Notes under the pieces: model-generated
Database searches by the model: none
Told to the model about the DNA's origin: nothing
Seen by the model: the letters and a program-made list of their open reading frames with translations, nothing else
Shown: one piece after another, positions 1,533 through 29,264 of the stretch
Position numbering within the stretch: the first letter of the stretch is position 1
Layout: the number at the start of each line of letters is the position of its first letter
Translations under genes and position numbers: made by a program
Source: Methanobrevibacter sp.
GTDB taxonomy: Archaea > Methanobacteriota > Methanobacteria > Methanobacteriales > Methanobacteriaceae
Direction: 5' to 3'
Length of the DNA: 40,576 nt
NCBI RefSeq assembly: GCF_017940815.1
Contig: NZ_JAGAXX010000035.1
Span: 1-40,576 of the forward strand

Positions 1533-4500
1533 ATGATAAATATGTATTACATTTTTTTTATATTAGTGTGCATTTTGATTTCAATCACATCAGTATCTGC
1601 AGTTGATTTAAATGATACTGTTGGTCATGATGTTTTAAATGATGTTGGAGAGAAATCATATGGTGACCTTAATATTAAAATTAATGGAGAAAATTTGAAT
1701 TTTACTTTTGAAAGTGATTATAAATTTAATGGTGAAATTGACAAAAATTATTCTGGTGGAGTCAATATAACCAAGGATAATTTTATAATTGATGGGAATA
1801 ATCATCGAATTGACTGTGGCGGTCAATCCAGAGCGTTCTATATCACAGGAAAGAATGTTGAAATAAATAATTTAATTATTGAAAATGCCTTTTACGGGTA
1901 TGGTTCGGCAATTAGAACTGGCTCCCAGTTAACATTGAACAATGTTACCTTCATAAATTGCTTAGGGGATAATGAAACTTATAGTGGAGGTGCCATTTTT
2001 TCTTACAGGACTACATTAAACGTTAATAATTGTAGATTCATTGATAATGGTGGAAAAAATGGTGCTTCACTCACTTCTTTAAGATCTACGGTCAATGTTG
2101 TCAACTCCACATTCATCAGCGGTAGCGATATGATTATTAATGGACATATATATTTGGAAAACTCACAGTTGACTGTTGACAGTTCCAATTTTTTAAATAC
2201 TACCTCAAAATATGCTACTGCAATTTTTTTAATGGATGATGGAAACTTAAATATTAAAAATTCTAAATTCAAAAACCTGTTTGCTTATAAAACTGCAGGT
2301 GCAATCGGAGCAAAAGTTGTATCAGATTTAACTGTTTCAAACTGTGAATTTGACAATGTATCTAGCGCAAACAATGGAGGTGCAATTTTTGTTGACATGA
2401 AAGGTTATGATGGGGCGTTATATAAACTTGAAATTGAAAATTCAGTATTTAACAACTGTTATTCCGGTTTTGGAGGTTCCATACTTCAATTGGATGGATA
2501 TTTGGTTATTAACAATACAAATTTCACTTCCAGTATTGCACATTATGAAGGCGGTGCAGTTTATACAAGTGATGCCTATGTAGGGATTTCCAATTCAAAA
2601 TTCAAATACAATAGTCTGATTGACGAAATGTCTTATGGAGGGGCATGTTATTTTGATAATGGTGCTGTAACCCTAGATGGAAATTCTTTTGAAAACAATA
2701 TGGCTTTTGAAGGGGCTTCAGTTTATGCATATGATGTGACTTTAAACTTAATCGGAAATTACTTCAACAATCCCTCTGATGCGATAAGCATATACACAGT
2801 ATATGGAAAAATGGATGAAGAACGGGATAACAATTATAGTTCAGATGTTAAATCTTTCAACAACACCAATAACTTCTATAATTTTGAAGGCAGTGCGAGT
2901 TCATTTATAATAATCAACAACACTCTTTCATTTGATGAGATGCCTGAAAAATTTGATTTGAGAAGCTATGGGTGGATTACTCCAGTTAAAAGCCAGGGGT
3001 TCGCGGGATCCTGCTGGGCATTTGGAAATCTTGCGGCACTGGAATCATCATTGCTGAGATATGCAAATAAGACATATTCCCTATCAGTGAACAATATGCA
3101 GAATTCAATGCTCAAGTATTCAAAATATGGAGATTCTTCTATGAAGGAAGGGGGAATTGCATTTTCCGCTGTTGCTTATTTGATTGACTGGCTTGGAATC
3201 TTTCCCGAAGAATATGACGGTTACGATGAACTGGGTAAGATATCCTCATTGGCCATAACTCCCGAAGACATCCATATTCAAAATGTGGTTGTCATTGCCC
3301 CAATAAAAAATGCTTCAGATAGGGATTTAATCAAAGATTCTTTAATAAAATATGGGGCTGTATCAACAGCTCATTACGCAAATTTCGATAAAAGTAAATA
3401 TTTCAACGAGTCAAGTTCTGCACAATATTTTTATGGCACACACAATGCAAATCATAGGGTTTGTATTGTGGGGTGGGATGACAGCTATTCAAGATATAAT
3501 TTCCTAAACACTCCTGAAGGTGACGGTGCATGGATTTGCAAAAACAGTTGGGGAACTGATTGGGGTGATGGAGGATACTTCTACGTGTCTTATTACGACA
3601 CCTCATTTGCAACCAAAGAGAGTATTTGTTACATAGTTAACAATGATTCATACACCCGGATTTATCAGCATGATGTTGGCGGGGAAGGTAAATGGATGGA
3701 AAGATCCAAGTATTATGCCAATGTTTTCACCGCCGATGAGGATGAATTTATTGGGGCTGTCGGAACATTTTTCAATCAAAGTGGCATTGAATATGAGTTT
3801 ACAATATCCGTAAACGATGTTGATGTACATACTCAAAAGGGAATAAGCAAATTTAGGGGATATGAAACAATCAAACTGGATAAACTCGTTCCAATTAAAA
3901 AAGGGGAAAAATTTAAAGTCACATTTAAGAACATGCTCTATGCCGTCAATACCCTCAGAATTCACCCTCAAATGGGACAGTCTTTTGTTAGTAATGATGG
4001 TGAATCCTGGCAAGATTTGAGTAATTCACTCTCTGTAGCGCTTCTCAAGGCATATGCAGTTTCTCAAATGCCTGCTGAAATTGATATAACTAATGAAACA
4101 ATTGATTTGAAAGTTGGTGACACTGTTCAGCTCAATGCTACTTTGAATCCGGCTGATGCAGGTAATCTGACATATTCTTCAATCAATGGAAGTGTTGTCA
4201 AAGTATCTGATGATGGTTCAATTGTTGCCGTTGGTAAAGGTACTGCCATTGTCACTGTTTCATTTGCTGGAAATGATAAATATGCTTCTGATTTAAAAAC
4301 AGTTACTATCAATGTAGGTAAGGTTTCCACCAATCTGGCTGCAGCAGATGTGACTGCAACTTATAATGTCAATAAATATCTTGTAATCACATTGAAAGAC
4401 AGTAAAGGAAAACCTTTAGTTGGTGCAGGTGTCACTGTTGACTTGAACGGTGCTAAAACCTACACTACTGACAGTAACGGTCAGGTTCAGGTGTCAACCA

Positions 4501-5114
4501 ATGGACTTGCTCCTAAGACTTACACTGCAAGAATAACATTCGACGGAAATACCAACTATGAAAAATCCGCCAAAAATGTTAAAGTCACTGTCAAGAAGGC
4601 AACTCCTAAGTTGACTGCCAAAAAGAAAACCTTTAAGACAACTACAAAAACCAAAAAGTACACTATTACATTAAAGGACAATACCGGCAAGGCAATCAAG
4701 AATGCCAAAGTCACCCTGAAAGTCAAAGGCAAAACCTACAAGGCAACCACAAACAGCAAAGGCAAAGCAGTCTTCAAAATCAAAAATCTCAAAAAGAAAG
4801 GAACCTTCAAGGCAACAGTAACCTATAAAGGAAACAAATACTACAACAAGGTATCCAAAAAAGCCAATATTAAAGTCATTGTCACCTTCAAGACAGTATC
4901 CAAAGGAAGCAAGGACAAATCCACAGTTAAAGAAATCCAACAGGCCTTAAAAGACCATGGATACTACATCTCATACAAAGGCCACTACCTTAAGGTTGAC
5001 GGTAAATTCAAAGGCTGCACTGAAAGATCCGTCAAGGAGTTCCAAAAGGACAAAGGCCTTAAAGTGACCGGTAAGGTTGATGAAAAGACCGCCAAAAAAC
5101 TTGGTTTAATTTAA
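1533..5114 (+). CDS. Secreted adhesin-like protein: beta-helix, C1A cysteine protease, Ig-like domains and cell-wall-binding domain
   Basis: 1193 residues. Signal peptide about 1-23 (hydrophobic run ending SVSA). Residues about 40-430 are right-handed beta-helix repeats (GGAIF, NNCxFxNN patterns). Residues about 450-720 form a papain-like C1A peptidase with Gln488, Cys494 (GSCWAF), His641 (NHRVCIVGWDD) and Asn671 (KNSWGTDWG), so all catalytic residues are present. A Big_2-like domain follows at about 850-928, two further Ig-like domains at about 930-1120, and a PG_binding_1-like domain at about 1122-1193. The product is probably anchored to the pseudomurein wall with the protease outward. The start is uncertain: GAGGA at 1516-1520 is ideally placed for ATG 1526, which is out of frame and reaches a stop after 25 codons. 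Losing one T from the T8 tract at 1552-1559 would join that ATG to this frame. Confidence 0.9.
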   Translation: MINMYYIFFILVCILISITSVSAVDLNDTVGHDVLNDVGEKSYGDLNIKINGENLNFTFESDYKFNGEIDKNYSGGVNITKDNFIIDGNNHRIDCGGQSRAFYITGKNVEINNLIIENAFYGYGSAIRTGSQLTLNNVTFINCLGDNETYSGGAIFSYRTTLNVNNCRFIDNGGKNGASLTSLRSTVNVVNSTFISGSDMIINGHIYLENSQLTVDSSNFLNTTSKYATAIFLMDDGNLNIKNSKFKNLFAYKTAGAIGAKVVSDLTVSNCEFDNVSSANNGGAIFVDMKGYDGALYKLEIENSVFNNCYSGFGGSILQLDGYLVINNTNFTSSIAHYEGGAVYTSDAYVGISNSKFKYNSLIDEMSYGGACYFDNGAVTLDGNSFENNMAFEGASVYAYDVTLNLIGNYFNNPSDAISIYTVYGKMDEERDNNYSSDVKSFNNTNNFYNFEGSASSFIIINNTLSFDEMPEKFDLRSYGWITPVKSQGFAGSCWAFGNLAALESSLLRYANKTYSLSVNNMQNSMLKYSKYGDSSMKEGGIAFSAVAYLIDWLGIFPEEYDGYDELGKISSLAITPEDIHIQNVVVIAPIKNASDRDLIKDSLIKYGAVSTAHYANFDKSKYFNESSSAQYFYGTHNANHRVCIVGWDDSYSRYNFLNTPEGDGAWICKNSWGTDWGDGGYFYVSYYDTSFATKESICYIVNNDSYTRIYQHDVGGEGKWMERSKYYANVFTADEDEFIGAVGTFFNQSGIEYEFTISVNDVDVHTQKGISKFRGYETIKLDKLVPIKKGEKFKVTFKNMLYAVNTLRIHPQMGQSFVSNDGESWQDLSNSLSVALLKAYAVSQMPAEIDITNETIDLKVGDTVQLNATLNPADAGNLTYSSINGSVVKVSDDGSIVAVGKGTAIVTVSFAGNDKYASDLKTVTINVGKVSTNLAAADVTATYNVNKYLVITLKDSKGKPLVGAGVTVDLNGAKTYTTDSNGQVQVSTNGLAPKTYTARITFDGNTNYEKSAKNVKVTVKKATPKLTAKKKTFKTTTKTKKYTITLKDNTGKAIKNAKVTLKVKGKTYKATTNSKGKAVFKIKNLKKKGTFKATVTYKGNKYYNKVSKKANIKVIVTFKTVSKGSKDKSTVKEIQQALKDHGYYISYKGHYLKVDGKFKGCTERSVKEFQKDKGLKVTGKVDEKTAKKLGLI
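4320..5114 (+). repeat. Shared 3' module, copy 1 (direct repeat with 9062-9856)
   Basis: The last 265 codons of adhesin gene 1 align without gaps to the last 265 codons of adhesin gene 2 at a constant offset of 4742 bp. A 90-bp stretch (4728-4817 versus 9470-9559) is identical. The module encodes two Ig-like domains and the wall-binding domain. Direct repeats this similar allow homologous recombination or gene conversion. Confidence 0.9.
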
Positions 5115-5121
5115 ATTTAAT

Positions 5122-5158
5122 GTGGATGCAATTGCATCTGCACTTTTTTCTTTTTTTT
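5122..5158 (+). terminator. Hairpin plus T-tract after adhesin gene 1
   Basis: GATGCAATTGCATC (5125-5138) is a perfect 14-bp palindrome, bordered by GTG and CAC. It is followed by T-runs at 5144-5158. It lies 10 bp after the stop codon and resembles an intrinsic terminator. Archaeal termination often needs only the T-tract. Confidence 0.6.
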
Positions 5159-26084: not shown

Positions 26085-26108
26085 ATGATGAAATATTTAT
26101 TTCATCAT
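26085..26108. terminator. Hairpin between convergent pyrE and moaB
   Basis: ATGATGAAATA (26085-26095) pairs with TATTTCATCAT (26098-26108) over a 2-base gap, with an A-run on the left and a T-run on the right. It can act in both directions. Its right arm covers the moaB stop codon. Confidence 0.65.
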
Positions 26109-26611
26109 TTTTTCACATGATGGACAAAATGAGGCAGTTCATCAATGATTAATCCTAAAGCTGTTTTAACAGCATTTGGGGAGCCGGGCATCGAAAATAT
26201 GATTGTTTTTTTATAGACTCCTGCAGTCGCTCTTGAGAGAAGTGCTGCAGATCCTATTTCTTCAAAAGATTTTGCCCTGAAGAGTTCTCCAAAACCATCA
26301 ATTTTTTTTTCAAAAAGTGCTTCAACGGTTTCAACGGTGATGTCACGTTCATCAAGACCTGTTCCACCGTTTGTTAGTATCACGTCAATTCCCTCGGAAA
26401 TCATGTCATCTATCGCATCGGTTAGGTCTTTTGGTTCATCAGGAATTAATTTTCTAGATTTTAATGTGTATCTAGATTCGATTTCCTCTGCGATGTATTT
26501 TCCAGACAAATCTAATTTTTCTGATTTTCTGCTGTCGCTAAGGGTTATTAATCCGCATTCAATATCATCAGATGATTGTTGCTTGTGTAATTTGGAAGTC
26601 TCACTTTTCAT
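26105..26611 (-). CDS. moaB: MoaB/MogA-type molybdopterin adenylyltransferase
   Basis: 168 residues from ATG 26611. It belongs to the MoaB/MogA fold, which adenylates molybdopterin before metal insertion. In methanogens the cofactor serves formylmethanofuran and formate dehydrogenases with Mo or W. DVILTNGGTGLDERDITVE is the family signature, with GSPNAV near the C terminus and FSMPGSP as the second loop. GAGGG just upstream selects ATG 26611 over the ATG at 26623. It is the last gene of an operon with three HTH regulators, and its start overlaps the regulator ahead of it. Confidence 0.9.
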   Translation of the reverse strand: MKSETSKLHKQQSSDDIECGLITLSDSRKSEKLDLSGKYIAEEIESRYTLKSRKLIPDEPKDLTDAIDDMISEGIDVILTNGGTGLDERDITVETVEALFEKKIDGFGELFRAKSFEEIGSAALLSRATAGVYKKTIIFSMPGSPNAVKTALGLIIDELPHFVHHVKK

Positions 26612-26954
26612 TTTTTCCCTCATTTTTAATTGATTCTTTAATTAAATTATATTCGTTTATATTCTTTAATAATTTTTTGCTGGGGCGATAATAGTAATTC
26701 TGCTCAAATTTTTCCTGTGTGATGTAGTCATATTTTGAGATTAGCTGTATGTGGTAACATATCGTTTTGTAGTCTAGCTGAAGTTTTTTTGATAATTGGT
26801 TTCTGTTGTATGGTCCTTCAAGTATTGCATCTATGATTCTTGCTGTTGTTTTTCCGCCGTCTCTGCTTTTAATTAAGTATAACAGTTCTTTGTTGGTCAA
26901 ATTCCAGATGTTCGTTTCAGTTTTTTTAATTTTAATCACCGCCAGTCTATTCAA
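26601..26954 (-). CDS. Winged-helix transcriptional regulator (ArsR-like)
   Basis: 117 residues. The central part (LLYLIKSRDGGKTTARIIDAILEGPYNRNQLSKKLQLDYKTICYHIQLISKY) is a winged-helix domain of the methanogen ArsR-like type, with a recognition helix around QLDYKTICYHIQ. No ligand domain is present. The start is TTG 26954, which overlaps the stop of the upstream regulator as TTGA; reinitiation after that stop is likely since no ribosome binding site is clear. A later in-frame GTG is possible. It sits just ahead of moaB, so a role in Mo/W cofactor control is an inference from position only. Confidence 0.8.
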   Translation of the reverse strand: MNRLAVIKIKKTETNIWNLTNKELLYLIKSRDGGKTTARIIDAILEGPYNRNQLSKKLQLDYKTICYHIQLISKYDYITQEKFEQNYYYRPSKKLLKNINEYNLIKESIKNEGKNEK

Positions 26955-27742
26955 TAATGATTAATGAGGCCAAATGCCCACGTTAAGGCATTCTCATCCT
27001 TGGCAATTAAGATTTGGCTGTCGTCGTAATGACCGTCTTTAAAAAATAATGTTAGAGACATGAATTCTTCTGAAATTGTCAAAAATAACCTTACCTTCTG
27101 CTTGGTTATTTTTATTTTGACTTTTTCATTTTCAACAAGGGACTTTTTCAAGTCGGCATTGCTTTTCATTGAATTTAAGATTTCACGGTCAATGGTTAAT
27201 TCCAGATTCTCTAATTTATTTTCATCTAGCAATTTTACTAGATGTTTCAAATGTTTCTCGGAATAGATCGGAAGAATAATCTTCAATGTTTTTGCTTTTG
27301 AAATTAATTTTAGATATGAATTGAATGCATTGGACAAATCGCTTGTAGTGGAATGTATATATTCGGCATCCTTTAGAAGGTACACGTTTTTCAAAACATC
27401 ATCTGGAATATCTGACAAATCGTGATTGTTCCAAAAGGCCTTGCTTTTGTTTACGGCATACCAGTTTTCAACAAGTTTCACCATGTTTACGGTTATCAGG
27501 TATCCGTTTGAAGTCAGTTCATATTGTTTGTTGACTTTCTTGATCAGATTGTTGTTTTCCAGTTCCTTAAGTCCATGCAATATTGTTGCGGAAGGCTTTT
27601 TCAACACATTTCTCAAGTCATCCAAGTTTTTAGGTCCATCATAAATTGCCAATAGCAGTCTTGAACGCATTCCTGAAGTCAAAATGTATTTGATTCCACT
27701 AAACTCTTTGTTTATTTGTTCACGGGTTTCTGTGCTGGTCAT
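26951..27742 (-). CDS. Methanogen HTH regulator with FilR1-type domain (DUF1724), paralogue B
   Basis: 263 residues. An N-terminal winged helix is seen at about 20-95 (LTSGMRSRLLLAIYDGPKNLDDLRNVLKKPSATILHGLKELE). The C-terminal half (about 130-260) resembles the FilR1/DUF1724 sensor domain found in archaeal regulators. It is a paralogue of the gene upstream: same length and order, shared AFWNNHDL versus AFWDNHNL near residue 105. The ATG overlaps the upstream stop by one base (TAATG). It is the second gene of the operon. Ligand unknown. Confidence 0.85.
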   Translation of the reverse strand: MTSTETREQINKEFSGIKYILTSGMRSRLLLAIYDGPKNLDDLRNVLKKPSATILHGLKELENNNLIKKVNKQYELTSNGYLITVNMVKLVENWYAVNKSKAFWNNHDLSDIPDDVLKNVYLLKDAEYIHSTTSDLSNAFNSYLKLISKAKTLKIILPIYSEKHLKHLVKLLDENKLENLELTIDREILNSMKSNADLKKSLVENEKVKIKITKQKVRLFLTISEEFMSLTLFFKDGHYDDSQILIAKDENALTWAFGLINHY

Positions 27743-28530
27743 TATATCACCTGATGTTTCACATGTTCAAATAATTTCTCAGCCCATTTGCCGGATTGCT
27801 CATCGTTTGAAACTAGGATGCGATTCTGGTCGAAGCTGCCGTCGTTTTTGAACAAGCCCAATCCTATGTTTTCATCGCAAATGCTCAAGTACAAATTCAA
27901 TTCGTCTTTAAACTTGAACACTCTCAATTTTTTACTTTTGACTGCAGGCCTTCTAATGTCTCCATTGATTTTGAAAAATAATTCTTGGAAAATGCTTTGC
28001 GGAATGATCAGTTCAACAGTGCCGTTGTTCTCCAATACCCTTTCAATTAATTTGGGGTATTCCGGATGCAAATAGGGAAATACTGCCTTTACGCTTTTAG
28101 ATGTGACCATCTGCTGTTTTATTGTATTGTGTGTTTTGAAAATCTCTGTTGGTGTCGCTTCAATTAGTGCACAATTCTTCAAATCGGTTATGCTTTTTAC
28201 AGAGTCAATGCTTAGCTGATTCAAGTTATGATTGTCCCAAAAAGCATCGTAATCACTAACCAGGTCCATGCTGTTTTTAAAGTCCATTAGACTTTTCAGA
28301 TAAACTTCTGCCATTGGAGAGATGTGGTACCTCTTGTTGATTTTTTGAATATGATTGTTTTTCTCTAATTTTCCTATATTACTTGAAACGGAACTGTAGG
28401 TAATCTTTGTTTTTTTAACGATGCCACGTACATTATTTGGTTGTTTATACAATTCACTTAAAATTTTCAATCGAATTTCCGATTTTGCAAGGAACTTGAT
28501 GTCGTTATTTATATCACTTTTGAAATTCAT
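27742..28530 (-). CDS. Methanogen HTH regulator with FilR1-type domain (DUF1724), paralogue A
   Basis: 262 residues, first gene of the minus-strand regulator-moaB operon. The N-terminal winged helix (about 15-85) has a recognition segment NVRGIVKKTKITYSSVSSNIGKLEKN. The C-terminal FilR1-like half contains TEIFKTHNTIKQQMVTSKSVKAVFPYLHPEYPKLIERVLE. GGAGATG seven bases before the ATG is a clear ribosome binding site. The promoter faces nob1 across an array of nine 11-bp repeats, the most likely binding site for this protein or its paralogue. Confidence 0.85.
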   Translation of the reverse strand: MNFKSDINNDIKFLAKSEIRLKILSELYKQPNNVRGIVKKTKITYSSVSSNIGKLEKNNHIQKINKRYHISPMAEVYLKSLMDFKNSMDLVSDYDAFWDNHNLNQLSIDSVKSITDLKNCALIEATPTEIFKTHNTIKQQMVTSKSVKAVFPYLHPEYPKLIERVLENNGTVELIIPQSIFQELFFKINGDIRRPAVKSKKLRVFKFKDELNLYLSICDENIGLGLFKNDGSFDQNRILVSNDEQSGKWAEKLFEHVKHQVI

Positions 28531-28617
28531 TTAAACATCTCCTATCCATAAAGATTTCTATTAAACTCTTCATGTAATTTCGTTAATATTAATTTAACAA
28601 TTAGAATTTAAATAAAT

Positions 28618-28716
28618 TATTCCAAATCCTTACAATATTTATCCAATATTTATTCTAAGCTTTTTCCAAACTTTTCCCAAATATTTCCCAAGGTTATTCC
28701 AAATGTATTCCAACTC
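28618..28716. repeat. Nine helically phased 11-bp repeats between divergent promoters
   Basis: Nine units in exact 11-bp register, starting at 28618, 28629, 28640, 28651, 28662, 28673, 28684, 28695 and 28706. The consensus is TATTCCAAANT: the first unit is TATTCCAAATC and the last two are TATTCCAAATG and TATTCCAACTC. Units 2 and 4 are the most degenerate. The array fills the gap between the minus-strand TATA box of the regulator operon (about 28606-28617, TTTATTTAAA) and the plus-strand TATA box of nob1 (about 28725-28740). It is not CRISPR: there are no spacers. Confidence 0.8.
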
Positions 28717-28724
28717 ATTGAATA

Positions 28725-28758
28725 GCTTTATTAATTTATAGTTTGTAATATAATATCA
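28725..28758 (+). promoter_or_regulatory. nob1 promoter, probably leaderless transcript
   Basis: A TATA-like CTTTATTAATTTATAG ends 18 bp before the nob1 ATG. Transcription should begin at or next to the ATG, and no ribosome binding site is present, so translation is probably leaderless. Confidence 0.5.
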
Positions 28759-29264
28759 TGGAAATTTATTATGTTCTAGATGCATCTGCTTTTATAAATG
28801 GATTTAAACTAATTTCTAAAAACAATTTCACGGTTCCAGAAATATCATCTGAAATTAAAGATTTCAAATCCAAATTAACATTTGATATGGCTCTTGAGGA
28901 AGGCAGGTTAATCATACAAGATGTGTCTTCCGAGTATATATCAAGTGTTAATGATATTATTTCTGATTCCGGTGATATTTTAAGATTATCCATGCCTGAT
29001 AAAAAATTAATATCCCTTGCATACATGTTCCATCAACAGGGTCGCAACGTAAAGGTTATCAGTGACGATTACACAATCCAGAACACCTTGAAAATCATGA
29101 ACATTCCGTATTCTGGAGTTATAACAGATGGAATTAAGGGAATTTACAATTGGAAAAAGGTTTGTGAAGGATGTAAAAAGGAATATGATGAGGATTATCC
29201 TTTTGATGATTGCGAGATTTGCGGTTCAAGAATATTCAAGAAAAGAATAAAGGTGAATAAATGA
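28758..29264 (+). CDS. nob1: Nob1-type rRNA maturation endonuclease (PIN domain plus zinc ribbon)
   Basis: 168 residues. Nob1 cleaves the 3' end of pre-16S rRNA in archaeal 40S-like small-subunit maturation. The PIN domain starts VLDASAFI with the metal-binding Asp8, and has further acidic residues at EEGR (about 47) and VISDDYTIQ (about 100-108). The zinc ribbon uses Cys136, Cys139, Cys152 and Cys155 (CEGC and CEIC). Length fits archaeal Nob1. The next gene overlaps its stop (ATGA). It is divergent from the regulator operon and shares the repeat array upstream. Confidence 0.93.
   Translation: MEIYYVLDASAFINGFKLISKNNFTVPEISSEIKDFKSKLTFDMALEEGRLIIQDVSSEYISSVNDIISDSGDILRLSMPDKKLISLAYMFHQQGRNVKVISDDYTIQNTLKIMNIPYSGVITDGIKGIYNWKKVCEGCKKEYDEDYPFDDCEICGSRIFKKRIKVNK

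Follow-up and report, generated by a model that had tools for sequence, protein, structure and literature searches.

Nine 11-bp direct repeats lie immediately upstream of the filA operon in the Methanobrevibacter contig analysed here (the window, the whole stretch of 40,576 nucleotides), and their register is fixed to the filA TATA box. On balance, we consider this array to be a probable multi-copy operator of the filA-filB-hth3-moaB operon, read by a wHTH protein that the operon itself encodes, most likely hth3.

The array and its surroundings

The features of the region are the following.

26105 to 26623, minus strand: moaB-like molybdopterin-binding protein, final gene of the operon
26601 to 26954, minus strand: hth3, small ArsR-like winged-helix protein of 117 aa, recognition helix 62-74 with K63; favoured candidate for the array binder
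26951 to 27742, minus strand: filB, second FilR1-like regulator, 263 aa, PF08350 (domain search)
27742 to 28530, minus strand: filA, FilR1-like regulator, 262 aa, PF08350 and ArsR-like wHTH (domain search)
28607 to 28614, minus strand: TATA box of the filA operon, TTTAAATA on the plus and TATTTAAA on the minus strand (from sequence; register alike in relatives with the array)
28618 to 28716, no strand: putative operator array, nine 11-bp direct repeats, consensus TATTCCAAATN (periodicity above shuffles; register to the filA TATA box conserved in 60 genomes)
28727 to 28740, plus strand: nob1 TATA-like element, TTTATTAATTTATA (from sequence)
28758 to 29264, plus strand: nob1, PIN-domain endonuclease, the divergent gene; relatives show no tie between it and the array

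Starting at 28618, the units read TATTCCAAATC, CTTACAATATT, TATCCAATATT, TATTCTAAGCT, TTTTCCAAACT, TTTCCCAAATA, TTTCCCAAGGT, TATTCCAAATG and TATTCCAACTC, with a spacing of exactly 11 bp throughout. They match the consensus TATTCCAAATT at 10, 6, 8, 8, 9, 8, 7, 10 and 9 of 11 positions, respectively. The register is perfect and the unit sequences are imperfect, unit 2 being matched at 6/11 positions. Since several units reach only 6-8 matches, the array is diverged and not a fresh duplication; because of this divergence, Tandem Repeats Finder recovered only three short pieces of it. The 11-phase score of the array (0.76-0.77) was the highest among all 99-bp stretches in the window and exceeded the maximum of 0.65 obtained from 2000 dinucleotide shuffles of the intergenic region. 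Self-identity was 0.66, 0.57 and 0.64 at lags of 11, 22 and 33, respectively. The nine units without a slip over 99 bp given in the preliminary description were thus borne out, as was the gene order it proposed, with filA, filB, a small wHTH gene and moaB running leftwards and nob1 rightwards.

The array was also said to fill the space between two TATA boxes, and it nearly does: it starts just past the filA TATA box at 28607-28614 and ends ∼10 bp short of the nob1 TATA-like element at 28727. On the filA side, the first repeat core, TTCCAAA, starts 13 bp from the first base of the TATA box, within the BRE region, and the complement of the filA ribosome-binding site is found near 28537-28543 by sequence. 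On the other side, the TATA-like element lies only 31 bp before the nob1 ATG, which suggests that the nob1 mRNA is probably leaderless. The FilR1 middle domain, PF08350, was detected above cut-off in both filA and filB (E 8e-23 and 2e-19, respectively).

Conservation and anchoring

The order PRC-pyrE-moaB-hth3-filB-filA-nob1 is retained in most of the genus, with filAB-hth3 sited between moaB and nob1 (L032-L060). The searches with nob1 and hth3 took in 66 further genomes of the genus; a scan of genome contigs with FilA alone as query gave no matches, while a FilB profile did match. In order-level relatives, nob1 lacks filAB as a neighbour, which suggests that filAB-hth3 was probably inserted at this place in the ancestor of the genus; nor was any array seen in them. 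The 11-bp array is found at nearly every filA promoter of the genus where the operon and its upstream region are present. Absence from relatives that keep the gene order would have spoken against the element described earlier; the array is present in them. Its unit number, also raised in that description, ranges from 4 to 18 among filA arrays, the shortest (4 units, e.g. G062) being marginal. It is larger in one genome, G013, where the array reaches two contig ends with 11 units on one side and >20 on the other.

In order to place the register, only the positions of [CG]AA cores were used, in 60 Methanobrevibacter genomes. Relative to the filA TATA box, 278 of 302 cores fell into two adjacent bins of the 11 phases; two phases are seen, not one, because CCAA cores differ from CAAA/TGAA cores. 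Relative to the nob1 ATG, all 11 phases were occupied, with 13-38 counts each, and the gap between array end and ATG varied from 19 to 423 bp. Where nob1 is displaced, the array stays beside filA: filA and nob1 are 2-4 kb apart in G020 and G035, and the operon lies ∼17 kb from nob1 in G009. The array therefore belongs to filA and is not an element shared by filA and nob1. The proposal that both promoters respond together through the array was not supported. One array coordinating the two divergent promoters would agree with the filA/nob1 gene order kept in most of the genus, and with the window and about half of the relatives, in which the array leaves little room before the nob1 TATA (gap to the ATG of 19-60 bp). 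Given the lack of a common register to nob1, the variable gap, the three genomes with array and filA apart from nob1, and the order-level relatives, we consider such coordination improbable. A side effect of the array on nob1 in this strain is conceivable.

The unit core drifts between species (TTCCAA, TTCAAA, TGAA), and the units agree within each genome, where the unit at certain other promoters varies along with that at filA. The core type of the window is TTCCAAA. Other cores are TTCAAAA (G005), TTCARTA (G025), CACAAA/CATAAA (G015 and G065), TGAANATT (one clade) and TCGAAATTCC (G021). Perfect matches of the TGAA type occur only in the TGAA clade and in a few related genomes, G033 among them; low-mismatch arrays of the CCAA type occur only in the CC genomes. 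A core that is specific to the species and common to the units of one genome would call for a trans-acting reader; judged from these sequences, agreement within genomes is the pattern expected of a changing reader protein. Some of the similarity between units of one genome could come from slippage or gene conversion inside arrays.

The candidate reader

We consider hth3 to have a somewhat better than even chance of being the array binder. Its AF2 model (pLDDT 84) matched CzrA, HlyU and SqrR in Foldseek, that is, ArsR-type winged helices, and it also matched AspA and TubR in structure. At the sequence level, hth3 had no Pfam family above cut-off: HTH_5 was found in 21 of 29 hth3-family members at E≤0.01, the hth3 of the window lying below the curated cut-off, and the NCBIfam metalloregulator model matched hth3 weakly. 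In G008, which was reached by two routes, filA and filB are kept, the genome has no hth3 match and there is no array. Two termite-gut relatives (L226 and L227) likewise keep filAB without an operonic hth3 and without an array; hth3-like genes elsewhere in these two genomes have no array beside them. The rule that links hth3 and array is one-way, since L229 has hth3 and no clear array. The hth3 status of G033 is unreadable owing to a run of N in the sequence.

A phylogeny-aware column scan, for which trait evolution was simulated along the tree, placed 4 of 89 hth3 columns at p<0.01, compared with 5 of 667 columns in filA, filB, moaB and nob1 together (Fisher p 0.014). Residue K63, first noticed by eye and placed by the model in the recognition helix, tends to vary with the unit core (scan p 0.0027); the best-scoring column of the whole scan was filB D173. 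In a strict independent-pairs test of K63 against the unit core, ∼3 pairs agreed, 0-0.3 disagreed and 3 were neutral, a result that is suggestive and not significant. N63 is found alongside CC-type units in G001, G011 and G034, while the clade of G023, G077 and G084 is mixed.

The two FilR1-like proteins had been named as the ones to test for binding. An HTH protein of the same operon is indeed the probable reader, but hth3 fits better than the FilR1-like pair. FilA and/or FilB reading the array in place of hth3, with the FilR1 middle domain sensing a ligand and the array serving as autoregulatory operator, would be in keeping with the position of filA and filB at the head of the operon, with their ArsR-like wHTH domains and with the recognition helix of FilA, which is altered in most TGAA-clade genomes. 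In addition, FilR1 of Methanosaeta binds the promoter of its own gene, both in vitro and in vivo (PMC3991700). The FilB recognition helix, KPSATILHGLK, is invariant while the units change, and filA and filB are present without an array in G008, L226 and L227. We therefore regard binding by FilA or FilB as possible and less likely than binding by hth3, and that by some protein other than these as less likely still.

Other arrays, mode of action and precedents

Further arrays were sought by pattern scans of 67 genomes and with a four-unit profile. In relatives, short arrays of the 11-bp filA-type unit adjoin the TATA boxes of recurring gene families, at an array-to-TATA spacing of ∼11-14 bp (by eye) versus 13 bp at filA. 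Shared units at other TATA boxes would make the filA array the main operator of a small regulon in these relatives. In the window's own genome, the pattern search and a sequence-only four-unit profile found only the filA array to be strong. Weak matches there at C24:2002 and C35:6759 were set aside as probably due to chance, the C24 match lying inside an ORF, and profile matches inside an IscU-like ORF in several genomes were discarded as false positives.

One group of such targets is a 51-aa family (L305:2303-2458:-), with about twelve array-bearing copies in G002, G006, G024, G026, G027, G070, G071, G078, G087 and G090. It has no Pfam or NCBIfam match, a divergent subfamily has no array, and the window's genome has no such gene. 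The family is patchy in the genus, and its promoters are often near-identical between different species, indicating recent transfer. In G024 and G027, the arrays at the 51-aa gene are of the CC type, yet the filA arrays are not, which possibly also reflects recent transfer. Genes for DUF6932 (PF22014; also the PADLOC candidate PDC-M63A) are another group, with clear cases in G003, G077, G082 and G085, a truncated one in G018 and a decayed one in G070; family membership was tested on the G082 member and the others were assigned by sequence likeness. These targets are candidate phage defence genes. In four TGAA-clade genomes (G013, G022, G061 and G069), a 337-aa family is found under TGAA-type arrays. 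The 337-aa protein L314:2658-3671:+ (HNKDTRVKISMRNH...) has homologues in L311, L312 and L317 and no convincing family match. G023 and G081 also have short arrays close to a gene for a flavodoxin-like reductase (L398 and L318).

The mechanism we propose is that a small wHTH protein from the operon, most likely hth3 and perhaps FilA/FilB as sensors through their FilR1 middle domains, would bind the array. One protomer would occupy each 11-bp unit, side by side and on nearly one face of the DNA. At a pitch of 11 bp against 10.5 bp for B-DNA, each unit is turned by ∼17 degrees, so bound proteins would trace a gentle superhelix. The bound protomers may form a cooperative filament whose end meets BRE/TATA and which would control the operon encoding its own binder; in relatives, the binder would also control a handful of accessory genes with short arrays at their TATA boxes. 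The suggestion of a helically spaced array for cooperative HTH binding is supported to the extent that this is an array of putative protein sites, conserved in relatives along with gene order.

As to the sign of regulation, the typical binding site of an activator in archaea is upstream of BRE, and that of a repressor is over the promoter or downstream of it (PMC5512572). The arrays lie upstream of BRE/TATA in the cases examined, which makes activation by helping TFB/TBP likelier than repression, and we rather expect the array to act in this way. An array serving as repressor operator, with the protein covering the BRE region, the operon autorepressed and the accessory targets silent, is possible and less favoured. 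Overlap of the proximal unit with the BRE region, next to TATA, would suit a repressor too; moreover, ArsR-fold relatives are mostly repressors, and some of the targets resemble defence genes, which are potentially costly. However, at several unrelated kinds of target the arrays extend upstream of TATA and not over it or the start site, which is the layout of an activator (PMC5512572), and a register exact to the base pair is unnecessary for a repressor. Passive, helically phased DNA, serving to position archaeal histones or to bend the promoter, would account for the A/T-richness of the region and for a period near the helical repeat. We regard it as very improbable, since the specific cores (CCAA, CAAA, TGAA) switch in concert in each genome and recur at other promoters, for which histone signals would have no need. 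Even less credible is a role in partition or replication, as an element resembling a centromere or iterons (parC/tubC/AspA type). Tandem short repeats beside a wHTH gene are the architecture of a partition site, and hth3 matches the AspA and TubR fold, but no partition NTPase is found among the genes of the filA operon and in relatives a single genome has arrays at several promoters, next to TATA boxes.

In the parC site of plasmid R1, an autoregulated promoter is surrounded by about ten 11-bp direct repeats; the reader there differs, being the ribbon-helix-helix protein ParR, which works with the actin-like ParM. AspA of pNOB8 builds a helix that coats DNA, and it has its site upstream of the gene that encodes it (PMC5120986). 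AspA and TubR (type III partition), both of which coat DNA, share the ArsR-like wHTH fold with hth3; their partition systems include a motor NTPase, and AspA nucleates on a 23-bp palindrome, neither of which is seen here. BldC of Streptomyces coats 9-bp repeats head to tail, and like the putative system described here it combines a small single-domain wHTH regulator with direct repeats in variable number at the promoters of several genes (PMC5859096). Unlike BldC, which is bacterial and MerR-like with a 9-bp unit, the archaeal hth3, a putative binder, has a family that matches ArsR-type models and ArsR-fold structures, and the arrays have an 11-bp unit, are longer and are locked to TATA. RdfS also forms head-to-tail filaments (PMC11963761). 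FilR1 of Methanosaeta harundinacea belongs to the same family (PF08350) as filA and filB and binds its own promoter. It works with the histidine kinase FilI and on methanogenesis genes, and the accessible part of the report describes no repeat array for it (PMC3991700), whereas no partner histidine kinase is found among the genes of the filA operon. A methanogen precedent is EarA of Methanococcus maripaludis, an activator whose short sites are clustered directly upstream of BRE/TATA (PMC5512572). The filA array shares this position. EarA uses four 6-bp TACATA sites (PMC10665913) at one archaellum operon, in contrast to the long uniform array of a different 11-bp unit at the regulator's own operon.

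The preliminary description knew of no such element in methanogens. We likewise found no description of such an 11-bp array in methanogens in the open-access literature searched, although shorter arrays at other promoters of relatives and the EarA sites abutting BRE mean that it does not stand entirely alone. Its parts are known in kind, namely clustered sites upstream of BRE and wHTH proteins on direct repeats. Probably new, as judged from the same literature, is the combination in Methanobrevibacter of a long 11-bp array, prone to drift and locked to TATA, with a small regulon and a reader that the operon probably encodes. More tentatively, we suggest a BldC-like head-to-tail wHTH filament that acts as an archaeal activator and switches genus-specific accessory, partly defence-like genes. 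Its length (∼4 to 18+ units) would set cooperativity or strength, and within this one genus, operator and reader would several times have changed their specificity jointly.

Species of Methanobrevibacter are the main methanogens in the guts of ruminants and humans, and to our knowledge few archaeal activators are known, with hardly any in this genus. One operon with its probable reader and an operator whose length varies naturally over sixty species, with specificity apparently changing in both together, offers a ready system for testing how promoter response depends on the number of repeats and in what way archaeal regulators act on BRE/TATA. With the array motif, the regulon can be searched for as well, including the orphan 51-aa family and the candidate defence genes.

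Repeats of the CCAA type are found in other settings as well. In L325 (G090:C24:215659-216113), ∼40 CCAA-type 11-bp units at ∼3150-3620 in the locus form an array that greatly exceeds the operator arrays in length and is not clearly sited at a TATA box, and in L326 (G089:C28) two further long CCAA-type 11-bp arrays, at ∼2360-2510 and 4590-5140, lie between adhesin-like genes. No array was found in the stretches examined at the FilR1 genes of order-level relatives or at a third FilR1 paralogue, L105 (G000:C57:32138-32476). This paralogue and its orthologues (L110, L124-L140) have a different, strongly conserved upstream element (..AGTAATACTACATAGGTGG..).
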